Assembly: GCA_030615745.1 (NCBI GenBank)
Contig: JAUWYR010000059.1
Span: forward strand, 1 to 9,829
Length of the DNA: 9,829 bases
Direction: 5' to 3'
Source of the DNA: Candidatus Zixiibacteriota bacterium
GTDB lineage: Bacteria > Zixibacteria > MSB-5A5 > SM23-73-2
Both the position numbers and the translations under genes were made by a program. Numbering within the stretch: the stretch's first letter is position 1; every line of letters starts with the position of its first letter. Shown here one piece after another: positions 3,195 through 7,868 of this stretch. The notes below the pieces were generated by a model. The model was not told the DNA's origin and made no database searches. It worked only from the letters and a program-made list of their open reading frames with translations.

Positions 3195-3203
3195 AGAAAA
3201 GGT

Positions 3204-3301
3204 GGAAGCGGATAGGATCTGGTGGTCCTTGCGGACTTCAAATCCGTTATCCCGGCTCTTTTTGAGTCGGGAGGTGGGTTCGATTCCCACCCCTTCCGCC
3301 A
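3204..3301 (+). tRNA. selC: tRNA-Sec (anticodon UCA), encoded CCA
   Basis: The 98-nt gene reads UGA as selenocysteine. The acceptor 5' strand is GGAAGCGG (3204-3211). The D arm has the six base pairs and 4-nt loop typical of tRNA-Sec (AGGATC/GGTCCT around TGGT, 3214-3229). The anticodon arm is 3231-3247 with TCA at 3238-3240 in loop CTTCAAA. A long extra arm of eight pairs has a T5 loop (3251-3271). The T arm is GTGGG-TTCGATT-CCCAC (3274-3290). The discriminator is G3298 and CCA is encoded (3299-3301). Oddity: the 3' strand after the T loop is only 12 nt, so the branch pairs as 7+5 with C3209 bulged, or has a C-C mismatch, unlike the usual bacterial 8+5. It lies 271 bases upstream of selD, whose product acts in the same pathway. 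Confidence 0.93.
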
Positions 3302-3339: not shown

Positions 3340-3395
3340 TTGACTGATTTCATCTTTTTATATTGATTATGAGCCAAAAAGAAAAAAATCTGTGT

Positions 3396-3467
3396 CCGTC
3401 GGGTCCCCTGACCCGACGGGAACTCCCCTTTTGGGTCAGCCTGCCCGTCCAGGGGGGACCCAAAAGG
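3396..3467. repeat. Compound palindromic element upstream of selD
   Basis: The first stem is CCGTCGGGTC/GACCCGACGG (3396-3405 with 3410-3419, loop CCCT), ten perfect pairs. The second is CCTTTTGGGTC/GACCCAAAAGG (3427-3437 with 3457-3467), eleven perfect pairs around a 19-base loop. Both arms share GGGTC/GACCC. It is much more GC-rich than the surroundings and has no coding content. Confidence 0.75.
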
Positions 3468-3483
3468 CACTGGATTAAGATAA

Positions 3484-3561
3484 TGGTAGCCGTCCCGTTT
3501 CAGACGGGGCGAAAATCTAACATTTATTTTTAATAACTAACGCCCATATGGGCGGCTACCA
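3484..3561. repeat. 78-bp inverted-repeat element abutting the selD start
   Basis: Terminal arms TGGTAGCCG (3484-3492) and CGGCTACCA (3553-3561) pair over nine bases. A left inner hairpin pairs 3491-3498 with 3504-3511 (loop TTCAG, one G-T pair), and a right perfect palindrome is CGCCCATATGGGCG (3541-3554). The centre is AT-rich (TAACATTTATTTTTAATAAC). Its right end is 11 bases before the selD ATG, so the arm could fold into the selD leader and mask the poor ribosome-binding site. That regulatory role is inference. The CCATATGG core recurs in the 139-209 element. Confidence 0.7.
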
Positions 3562-3572
3562 GGTTTTAAATT

Positions 3573-4625
3573 ATGTCAGAAAAAGAAAAAATAAAACTCA
3601 CAGCTTATGCCTCGTCATTTGGGTGAGCTTCCAAATGTAGTCCGGAGGACACGATGCAGGTTCTGCATCATCTGAACAAAGTCGATGACCCCAATGTTTT
3701 GGTCGGCTTTAACGCAGTTGATGATTGCGGTGTATATAAACTTACAGATGATTTAGCTTTAGTTCAAACAGTTGATTATTTTCCTCCGGTTGTGGATGAC
3801 CCTTATGATTTCGGTGCCATCGCCTGTGCCAACTCTTTATCCGATATTTATGCTATGGGTGGAAAACCAATTTCTGCTTTAAATATTGTTGGATTTCCGT
3901 CTAATAAGCTTCCTTTAGAAGTCTTGGAGGAAATTTTAAAAGGTGGGTCTTTTAAGGCTAAAGAAGCAGAAGTTTCAATAATCGGAGGTCACACAATTAA
4001 GACAAAAGAGCCCCTTTATGGTATGTCGGTTACCGGAGTGATCCATCCGCAAAAAATCGTTAAAAATAGTGGAGCTGAAGTTGGGGATGCTTTGATTTTA
4101 ACCAAACCTCTTGGAATCGGGATAATAACCACCGCGCTCAAACAGGGAAAAATCTCTTCAGATGTTGAAAAAAATGTAACAGAGATAATGACTACTTTGA
4201 ATAAAAATGCTTCGGAGGCAATGGTAGAGGTTGGAATAAAAGCTTGCACAGATATTACCGGCTTTGGTCTTCTTGGTCATCTATGGGAGCTATGCTCCTC
4301 CTCTGGTGTAGGAGCGAAAATCTATCTTTCGAGGATTCCAACGATAAAAGAGGTCTGGGATTTTGCTTCGAAAAAAATTATTCCTGGAGGAACATTGGCA
4401 AATCTAAAATTCGTGGAGGATAAGGTGGTCTGGGAGGAAAGGATAAGCGAGGATGCAAAAATTGTCCTAACTGATGCTCAGACCTCAGGTGGACTCTTGA
4501 TATGTTGCCCTGAGGATAAAAAAGAAAGGCTTTTGGATCTTTTAAAAGAGAAAAATGTTTCAAATTATAATATAATAGGAAAGATTTTAGAGGATAAAAG
4601 ATGCAAGATAAAAGTGGAGATGTGA
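3573..4625 (+). CDS. selD: Selenide, water dikinase (selenophosphate synthetase), Sec-containing
   Basis: SelD makes selenophosphate from selenide and ATP, the selenium donor for SelA. Reading from ATG 3573, codon 18 is TGA (3624-3626) in the context LTAYASSFG-U-ASKCSPED. That is the place of the catalytic Cys17 of E. coli SelD, with the essential lysine at Lys21. The full product is 350 residues, like E. coli SelD (347). Downstream are the ATP-binding VDDCGVY (48-54), GGHTIKTKEP and TDITGFGLLGHL motifs. Beginning at ATG 3654 would remove the active site. ATG 3573 is the only upstream start, because an in-frame TAA lies at 3567-3569, but its ribosome-binding site is poor. A SECIS hairpin candidate is at 3653-3669. 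The gene overlaps selA by 25 bases. Confidence 0.93.
3653..3669 (+). promoter_or_regulatory. Candidate bacterial SECIS hairpin in selD
   Basis: GATGCAGGTTCTGCATC folds as a perfect stem (GATGCA/TGCATC, loop GGTTC; or seven pairs with loop GTT). From memory, the E. coli fdhF minimal SECIS is GGTTGCAGGTCTGCACC, also 17 nt, with the same GCA-GGU..C-UGC apex that binds SelB. The hairpin starts 26 nt after the UGA, longer than the 11 nt of fdhF, but the apical G lies about 33 nt away, within the range accepted for bacterial SECIS. A small GTCC-GGA-GGAC hairpin (3640-3650) in between could shorten the effective distance. The codons also encode MQVLH, so some of the pairing could be coincidental. 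Confidence 0.75.
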
Positions 4626-5995
4626 AATCTAAAAAGTTAAGAACTCTTCCTCAGATCGAGAAGATATTACAAACTCCTGCCTTAAAAAAATTTATTCAAA
4701 ATCACTCTCAAAAAGCAGTTGCAGATGTAGCCAGAGAGATTGTAAATTTATTCAGAAAAAATATCTTGAAGGGGAAAGAGAAAGTATCGGAAAAGAAAAT
4801 CCTTAAAGAAATTCAAAAAATTCTTTTGGAAAGACAAACCCTACCCTTAAAAGCGGTTATAAATGGAACCGGGGTTATCATTCACACAAATCTGGGCAGA
4901 GCACCTCTCTCAGAGGATACAATTAAACATATTTCAGATATTGGTAAAAATTATTCAAATCTCGAATTCGATTTACTCAAAGGTAGGAGGGGAGAAAGAA
5001 CATCCTTTCTGGAGAATCTAATCTGCGAGTTGACAAAAGCTGAAGGAGCATTGGTTGTCAACAACAACGCTTCTGCAGTTCTGTTGATTTTGGCTGGGTT
5101 AGCTAAGGGAAAAGAGGTTTTGGTCTCAAGAGGTGAGCTTGTTCAGATAGGAGGAGGCTTCAGAGTTCCTGAGGTGATGGAAGAGTCGGGTGCTTTTCTA
5201 AAAGAGGTTGGGACAACTAACCAGACCTCGGTTAAAAACTATGAAAATAACATAAATGAGAATACCTCTTTAATCTTAAAAGTTCACAAAAGCAACTTCA
5301 GGATGGAAGGATTTGTTGGTGAAGCAACGTTAAAAGAGTTGGTCAATTTAGGCAAAAAGTATAATATCCCTGTTGTCCAGGATTTAGGAAGTGGCTGTTT
5401 TTTGAACTCAGAGGATTTCGGATTAGCCCATGAGCCAACTCCATTTGATTCTATTAACTCAGGGGTTGATCTGATCTCATTCTCAGGGGATAAGCTCTTA
5501 GGAGGACCACAATCTGGAATAATTTTGGGGAAAAGGAAATACACAGATTTTTTAAGAAAAGATCCCCTTTATCGCGCCCTAAGAGTTGATAAACTGATAA
5601 TCTCAGGATTGGAAAATGTGATTTTGACCTATCTAAAAAAAGAAGCTACCAAAAAAATACCGGTGTGGCAGATGATAAGCATACCCTTAAAAGACTTGAG
5701 AAAGAGAGCTTTAGAAATACAAAAAGAGTTAAAAAAATCTAATATAAAACTCAATATTTTTGAATCCAAAAGCACAGTGGGTGGAGGTTCTCTGCCCGGC
5801 GAGACTCTGCCTACAATTGTTATTTCAGTGGACTCGAAAATATCACCCCACATTCAGGCACAGAATTTCCGAAATCAAAGTCCACCCATTATTGGAAGAG
5901 TCGAAAAGGATAAGTTCATTTTAGATTTGAGGACGATCTTCCCCCATCAGGATGAGGAAGTCTTGCAATCTGTCAAAAAAATTTTTTCAAAGTAA
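4601..5995 (+). CDS. selA: L-seryl-tRNA(Sec) selenium transferase (selenocysteine synthase)
   Basis: SelA is a pyridoxal-phosphate enzyme that converts Ser-tRNA(Sec) to Sec-tRNA(Sec) using selenophosphate from SelD; the E. coli enzyme is a large cytoplasmic homodecamer. The 464 residues match its usual length (463). Landmarks are the basic helical N-terminal region (about 10-80) that contacts tRNA-Sec, VINGTGVIIHTNLGRAPLS (86-104), NLEFDL..GRRGER (120-133), NNNASAVLL (154-162), VHKSNFRMEGF (228-238), and the PLP lysine Lys298 in SFSGDKLLGGPQSG. The start at 4601 lies inside the end of selD, with GAGG (4590-4593) seven bases upstream, so it is probably translated in coupling with selD. selB follows after seven bases. 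No key residue appears to be missing. Confidence 0.97.
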   Translation: MQDKSGDVKSKKLRTLPQIEKILQTPALKKFIQNHSQKAVADVAREIVNLFRKNILKGKEKVSEKKILKEIQKILLERQTLPLKAVINGTGVIIHTNLGRAPLSEDTIKHISDIGKNYSNLEFDLLKGRRGERTSFLENLICELTKAEGALVVNNNASAVLLILAGLAKGKEVLVSRGELVQIGGGFRVPEVMEESGAFLKEVGTTNQTSVKNYENNINENTSLILKVHKSNFRMEGFVGEATLKELVNLGKKYNIPVVQDLGSGCFLNSEDFGLAHEPTPFDSINSGVDLISFSGDKLLGGPQSGIILGKRKYTDFLRKDPLYRALRVDKLIISGLENVILTYLKKEATKKIPVWQMISIPLKDLRKRALEIQKELKKSNIKLNIFESKSTVGGGSLPGETLPTIVISVDSKISPHIQAQNFRNQSPPIIGRVEKDKFILDLRTIFPHQDEEVLQSVKKIFSK

Positions 5996-6002
5996 TTAAA
6001 GG

Positions 6003-7868
6003 ATGTTTGTTTTGGGAACAGCTGGTCATGTTGACCATGGGAAGTCAGCTTTGGTTAAGGCTCTAACAGGGATCGATCCCGACAGGCTTCCTGAGGAGAA
6101 AGAAAGGGAGATGACCATAGATTTAGGGTTTGCCTGGCTTTTTTTTCCAGATGGTAAAGAGGTGGGGATAGTCGATGTGCCAGGGCATGAGAGGTTTGTA
6201 AGAAATATGATCTCTGGTGTGGGAGGAATCGATGCGGTCTTGTTTGTCGTAGCAGTTGATGATGGCTGGATGCCCCAGTCAGAGGAGCATCTTCATATCA
6301 TAAGGCTTTTGGATATTAGATATGGGATTGTGGTTTTGACCAAGATAGATTTAGTAAAAAAAGATTGGCTTTCTCTGGTAGAAGAAGATATTAAGCAGAA
6401 GCTCAAAGGGACTTTCTTAGAGAATGCACCTCTGGTCAAAACCTCATTTGTTGAAGGTACTGGGATTGAAGAGTTGAGGTCTCAAATTATGGATTTGATA
6501 AAAAAGATTCAGCCGAAAAAAGACCTCGGAAAGCCGAGAGTTTTTGTGGATAGAGTATTCACTATGTCAGGAAGGGGAACAGTTGTAACAGGGACACTCA
6601 TAGATGGGTCTTTATCTTTAGATCAGGAGGTGAAGATTTTACCTCAGGGTCTTTTTTCGAGGGTCAGGGAGCTCCAAACTCATAAAAAGAAAAGGGAAAG
6701 AGTTGAACCTGGAACAAGGGTGGCAATGAATTTAGCTGGTCTGGAAAAATCTGAGATTAAAAGAGGGGATTTGGTGACAACTCCTGATTTTGAGAAAACT
6801 ACACTTCTGGTTGATACCAGGGTGCAGATGATCTCATCCTCCCCATATCCATTAAAACATAATCTTGAGATTTTATTCATTTTGGGAACAACTGAGCTTT
6901 TGGGAAAAGCAATCCTTTTAGAAAAGGATATACTCAAACCGGGCGAGGAGAGTCTGGTTCAGTTCAGGTTCAAAAAGCCTTTGGTCCCCAGAGTTGGAGA
7001 CCATTTCATCCTAAGGCTTCCCTCCCCTCCCACAACCATAGGTGGAGGTGTGGTTTTAGATATAGAGACAAAGAGACATAAAAGAAAAGACCCGAAATTT
7101 CTTGTTTATCTTGAAAGGAGAGCCTCTCTTAGACTCTCTGACCTTATATTATCGGAGTTGGAAAAGTCTGAGTTCGTCTTAACAAGAAATTTACTTAAGG
7201 AAAGTCTTTTCAGTCAAAAAGATGTCGAATCTGAGTTGAAAAACTTAGAAAAGCAAGAAAAAGTGATTTTAAAAGAGGAGATGGCAATCGATTCAAAAAG
7301 ATTCGAAAAGCTTTCTGAGATGATAGTTGAAAAAATTAGGGAAGAACACACAAAATATCCTTTTAAACCGGGATTGAAGCTATCAGATTTAGGCTCAACT
7401 GTCAAAGCAAATGGGAAATTTTTAGATTTTGTGATCAAAAGTTTGATAACTGAAAAAAAGATAGTTCAAAAAGAAGCCTACCTTTCTTTTTTAGACCACA
7501 AGCCCAAGCTGACACAGGAACAGGAGAGAATAGCTTCAGAGATTTTGAAAAAATTTGAGTCCAAACCAAAAGCACCTCCAATAAAAGATGAAATCATAAC
7601 TTGTGGTAAAGAGCACAAAGAGGTCTTTTCCTTTCTTATTCAACAGGAAATTATAGTCGAGCTTGGCTCAGGAATACTTTTTTTAAAAAAGGATTTTGAA
7701 AAAATTCAAAAGAAAGTCATAGATTTCATCAAAGAGAATGGTCCCTCCACTGTAAGCCAGATAAGAAAACATCTGGAAATAACCAGAAAATATGCAGTTC
7801 CCATCTTAGAGAAATTAGATCAATTGAAAATCACCAAAAGAGATAGGGACAAAAGAGTCTTAGCTTAA
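6003..7868 (+). CDS. selB: Selenocysteine-specific elongation factor SelB
   Basis: SelB is the GTPase that carries Sec-tRNA(Sec) to the ribosome and recognises the SECIS hairpin in mRNA. The 621 residues resemble E. coli SelB (614). The G domain has P-loop GHVDHGKS (8-15), switch I EREMTIDLGF with Thr38, DVPGH (58-62) and TKID (113-116). Domain II spans about 176-260 and includes SGRGTVVTGTL, and domain III spans about 265-360. The C-terminal winged-helix array occupies about 370-621 and ends in ENGPSTVSQIRKHLEITRKY and then AVPILEKLD, a typical SelB WH4 for SECIS binding. This intact array fits the SECIS-like hairpin in selD. The start follows selA by seven bases, with AAAGG (5998-6002) directly against the ATG, so coupling to selA is likely. 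Confidence 0.97.
   Translation: MFVLGTAGHVDHGKSALVKALTGIDPDRLPEEKEREMTIDLGFAWLFFPDGKEVGIVDVPGHERFVRNMISGVGGIDAVLFVVAVDDGWMPQSEEHLHIIRLLDIRYGIVVLTKIDLVKKDWLSLVEEDIKQKLKGTFLENAPLVKTSFVEGTGIEELRSQIMDLIKKIQPKKDLGKPRVFVDRVFTMSGRGTVVTGTLIDGSLSLDQEVKILPQGLFSRVRELQTHKKKRERVEPGTRVAMNLAGLEKSEIKRGDLVTTPDFEKTTLLVDTRVQMISSSPYPLKHNLEILFILGTTELLGKAILLEKDILKPGEESLVQFRFKKPLVPRVGDHFILRLPSPPTTIGGGVVLDIETKRHKRKDPKFLVYLERRASLRLSDLILSELEKSEFVLTRNLLKESLFSQKDVESELKNLEKQEKVILKEEMAIDSKRFEKLSEMIVEKIREEHTKYPFKPGLKLSDLGSTVKANGKFLDFVIKSLITEKKIVQKEAYLSFLDHKPKLTQEQERIASEILKKFESKPKAPPIKDEIITCGKEHKEVFSFLIQQEIIVELGSGILFLKKDFEKIQKKVIDFIKENGPSTVSQIRKHLEITRKYAVPILEKLDQLKITKRDRDKRVLA

Follow-up and report, generated by a model that had tools for sequence, protein, structure and literature searches.

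The selD gene in the window (the whole 9,829-bp stretch of DNA analysed, which makes up the complete contig C32) very probably encodes a selenophosphate synthetase with selenocysteine (Sec) at its catalytic position, the in-frame UGA being predicted to be recoded through a hairpin that follows it (Table 1). The gene comes from a metagenome-type assembly of 2.28 Mb in 74 contigs that is 98.6% complete and has Zixibacteria assemblies as its closest named relatives, and lies within a complete Sec machinery in the order tRNA-Sec, selD, selA and selB, with the selA start overlapping the 3' end of selD by 25 nt. The first-pass annotation had proposed that this SelD is itself a selenoprotein with its own SECIS element, a reading now backed by homologs, covariation, the adjoining machinery and genomic context. 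Upstream of the Sec genes, positions 2473–2943 code for a peroxiredoxin-like protein in which the usual site (VFFSSLKENQ) shows no obvious peroxidatic Cys or Sec.

Table 1. Coordinates of the selD locus (window positions) and of two further in-frame TGA codons (locus positions) in the same genome.
Feature	Position	Strand	Evidence
tRNA-Sec gene, anticodon TCA (reads UGA)	3203–3300	+	ARAGORN; Rfam RF01852, 66.9 bits vs gathering score 47
selD, selenophosphate synthetase, 350 residues, predicted Sec at residue 18	3573–4625	+	NCBIfam TIGR00476, 379 bits vs cut-off 125
In-frame TGA, predicted Sec18	3624–3626	+	Same alignment column as the catalytic Cys17 in E. coli SelD
Small hairpin GUCC-GGA-GGAC, between UGA and SECIS hairpin	3640–3650	+	Maintained in Sec-SelD genes; weak alone
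Bacterial SECIS apical hairpin, 7 bp, loop GUU	3653–3669	+	Folding, covariation, Sec vs Cys contrast
selA, L-seryl-tRNA(Sec) selenium transferase	4601–5995	+	TIGR00474, 574 bits
selB, Sec-specific elongation factor	6003–7868	+	TIGR00475, 370 bits
FdhA and HdrA in-frame TGA	L131:2090–2092; L132:8150–8152	+; -	Same genome as window

The start codon (ATG 3573–3575), the internal TGA and the main open reading frame share one frame, whose terminal stop is also a TGA (4623–4625). With the internal TGA read as Sec, the protein begins MSEKEKIKLTAYASSFGUASKCSPED and matches the solved structure of E. coli SelD (3u0o, E 3.4e-78). In the structure alignment U18 falls opposite Cys17 of the E. coli enzyme and K21 opposite its K20, a UxxK motif with the lysine three residues on, which agrees with the earlier assignment of the TGA to the catalytic Cys equivalent. 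The annotation had also called for an alignment of homologs at this residue. Among 110 SelD loci, 109 were readable at the column (one starts past the site): 48 have TGA, 61 have Cys and none has another codon. Some of these loci represent the same contig twice, and the hairpin tests described below use distinct sequences (42 Sec and 60 Cys). A genome of the same genus has the identical TGA in a protein that is 83% identical, every relative in the order that has selD shares the codon, and it also occurs in other phyla. The two conditions that the annotation had named as refuting its reading, near homologs with neither a Cys nor a Sec codon and an error in the TGA, were checked in this way and did not overturn it. 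A second cysteine, Cys22 (3636–3638), lies four residues past Sec18 (UxxxC) and was found, among the compared homologs, only in members of the order.

The perfect 17-nt hairpin that had been noticed after the TGA was located with all seven pairs intact (GATGCAG-GTT-CTGCATC). Only 1 of 200 shuffles matched it, and 7/7 pairing arose in 0.7% of synonymous-codon draws from the gene's own usage. The bSECIS model (PMC13188914) describes a loop of 3–9 nt whose first or second base is G, a stem of 4–16 bp, a spacing from the UGA of 16–37 nt and a minimum free energy of -7.5 or lower. The window hairpin fits all four constraints, with a 3-nt GUU loop that opens on G, a 7-bp stem, a UGA-to-loop spacing of 33 nt (towards the long limit of that range) and a folding energy of -7.8 kcal/mol. 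A search of Rfam returned no family matching the SECIS region. Wider folds of the UGA region were unexceptional relative to shuffles (z -0.7 to -1.3) and one short fragment of the region adopts a different fold. Because longer stretches fold no better than shuffles, folding of the single sequence is insufficient by itself, and comparison among genes decides. Comparison also disposed of a hairpin around the UGA (CATTTGG/CCAAATG, 3616–3637), which is strong in the window but was rejected as functional because neither the same-genus relative nor the rest of the order retains it.

Across 29 distinct Sec genes, standard pairs occupy 95.6% of the cells of the SECIS helix and two-sided changes occur at five of its seven pairs. 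All seven pairs are kept in 28 of the 42 distinct Sec genes vs none of the 60 distinct Cys genes. As a control for coding constraint, we redrew the synonymous codons of each gene according to its own usage. Sec genes had 6.26 pairs vs 4.28 expected (z 13.3) and Cys genes stayed near expectation with 3.13 vs 2.84 (z 2.5); the compared sequences are related and Paenibacillus is heavily represented in the Cys set, so these z-scores overstate independence and are not probabilities. The pairing excess of the Sec genes recurs when the order, Firmicutes and the remaining sequences are analysed as three separate groups, and none of 1000 draws reached the observed mean.

Sec-SelD genes also maintain the small hairpin that separates the UGA from the SECIS helix. 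Although weak by itself (-2.5 kcal/mol), it retains 3.07 of 4 pairs in Sec genes vs 1.97 in the codon control, with an excess in each of the three groups. When both helices are taken together, 89% of cells are paired, a value that falls to 30–48% when the register is slid. Two-sided changes in the small hairpin are few among Sec genes, and Cys genes show some pairing excess too (z 3.7, read with the same caution about relatedness). The latter indicates that the coding motif G-P-E-D or relatedness accounts for part of the signal. A two-hairpin SECIS, in which the small hairpin absorbs about 11 nt and brings the distant loop effectively about as close to the UGA as in fdhF, is a tentative proposal that we regard as possible but rather doubtful. 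A brief literature search, with most subscription journals outside its coverage, found no description of such a hairpin. Its maintenance offers a simple test case for the spacing tolerance of SECIS elements.

The arrangement of the locus is consistent with the following predicted route to Sec. A ribosome translating selD would reach the UGA at codon 18, where SelB (from the downstream gene), loaded with Sec-tRNA-Sec (from the upstream gene), would bind the SECIS hairpin, so that Sec is inserted and termination avoided. Full-length SelD would then convert selenide and ATP to selenophosphate, from which SelA would produce Sec-tRNA-Sec. This product would supply Sec for FdhA, HdrA and SelD itself. 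Both the insertion of Sec and the enzymatic activity of SelD are thus putative steps.

The other presumed recipients of Sec lie elsewhere in the genome. In-frame TGA codons were identified in FdhA (ARIUHSATV) and HdrA (DCSIUILGPKM), which gives at least two candidate selenoproteins besides SelD in a search that covered a few families and leads us to reject SelD as the sole selenoprotein. Selenouridine as an alternative use of SelD was rejected as well, as selU/ybbB was not found in the order. The genome has one SelD; two further matches are weak hits to distant sequences, at 33% and 26% identity, and a Cys copy of SelD was not found in the genome. The single SelD upholds the earlier suggestion that the enzyme needs its own product. 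Hence the organism appears to be an ordinary Sec user whose SelD would depend, in the cell, on the pathway that it feeds. In a relative from the same order (G010), the tRNA-Sec gene upstream of selD has the anticodon TTA, which would read UAA (L090:3476–3570, minus strand; G010:C55:4451–4545). Its cloverleaf is intact by eye and a TCA-anticodon copy was not found in that assembly, yet the selD, HdrA and FlpD genes of this relative have in-frame TGA codons despite the UUA anticodon. The variant may reflect an assembly error, a missing second copy or a real change.

Self-dependence had also led the first-pass annotation to suggest a selenium-sensing feedback. The UGA would double as a sensor if low Sec-tRNA caused termination at codon 18, leaving less SelD and perhaps, via the gene overlap, less SelA. 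The presence of a single SelD accords with such a loop, and termination at codon 18 could cut coupled translation across the selD/selA overlap, although this is a consequence of layout. Against it, such a positive loop would deepen selenium starvation rather than correct it, and no dedicated leader element was found in the region upstream of selD (3380–3572). It contains pieces of a dispersed repeat family with inverted-repeat ends that match 34 other places in the genome, and a selD-specific regulatory leader was rejected for this reason. We therefore regard a sensory role as unlikely: Sec shortage would lower full-length SelD, as the layout implies, and nothing here supports its use as regulation.

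Initiation at the in-frame ATG 3654 is far less probable still. It would yield a protein of 323 residues without Sec and reduce the upstream frame to a leader. A GGAGG sequence (3644–3648) precedes this codon at good Shine-Dalgarno spacing, and mechanical ORF calling does start there, as the annotation had warned, with the loss of 27 residues that include the Sec loop. However, the alignment to E. coli SelD extends across the 27 codons before it and takes in Cys17 and Lys20. These codons are conserved in relatives, most of which have no Met at the position of ATG 3654, and a SelD deprived of the Sec loop would be deprived of its catalytic residue. A sequencing or assembly error or a decaying pseudogene, which the fragmented source might suggest, has a negligible probability, as the TGA is shared with the same-genus and order relatives and with other phyla, the downstream selD frame is intact and only Sec genes preserve the hairpin.

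The SECIS element of E. coli fdhF, which has the loop GGUC, provides the closest point of reference for the apex of the window hairpin. The early description of this apex as fdhF-like stands for the GCA...UGC top of the stem and the GGU in the loop region but not for the loop itself, which is one nucleotide longer (G-GUU-C). Furthermore, the distance from the UGA to the loop is about 14 nt greater in selD than in fdhF, with the extra small hairpin in between, whose 11 nt would account for most of the difference. FdhA of the same genome is closer to fdhF than selD is in SECIS position and loop, with a GGUCU loop placed as in fdhF; the HdrA hairpin has a 7-bp stem and a GGUC loop. The bSECIS model, for its part, has one stem-loop, unlike the Sec-SelD genes with their second hairpin.

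The selD of the window is very probably a real Sec-SelD, and the gene type has long been known. The first-pass annotation had noted that some bacterial SelD proteins carry Sec at this position. Sec-SelD proteins are widespread in bacteria (Zhang et al., 2006, PMC1794560; Mariotti et al., 2015, PMC4561486), and Sec occurs in 19% of detected prokaryotic SelD proteins, always at the Cys17-equivalent position (Mariotti et al., 2015, PMC4561486). Also discussed are species with SelD as their single selenoprotein, in which the Sec decoding trait may persist just to make SelD (PMC1794560). Two instances of SelD fused to NifS have been reported among prokaryotes (PMC4561486); in other members of the window's class (L095, L096 and L099), a Cys SelD is fused behind a domain that, judged by eye from the sequence, is a NifS-like desulfurase. 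The familiarity of the gene type limits the surprise. Nevertheless, the annotation of a key gene is corrected in a poorly studied phylum, and the base enzyme of the selenium pathway would depend on that pathway in a Zixibacteria organism. Like other Sec-containing SelD/SPS2 proteins, the window protein belongs to the TIGR00476 family, with Sec at the Cys17 column in a UxxK motif, a SECIS directly downstream and the Sec machinery at hand; it differs in the UxxxC motif, which among the homologs compared is confined to the window order, and in the tRNA-Sec gene that most members of this order have just upstream of selD.
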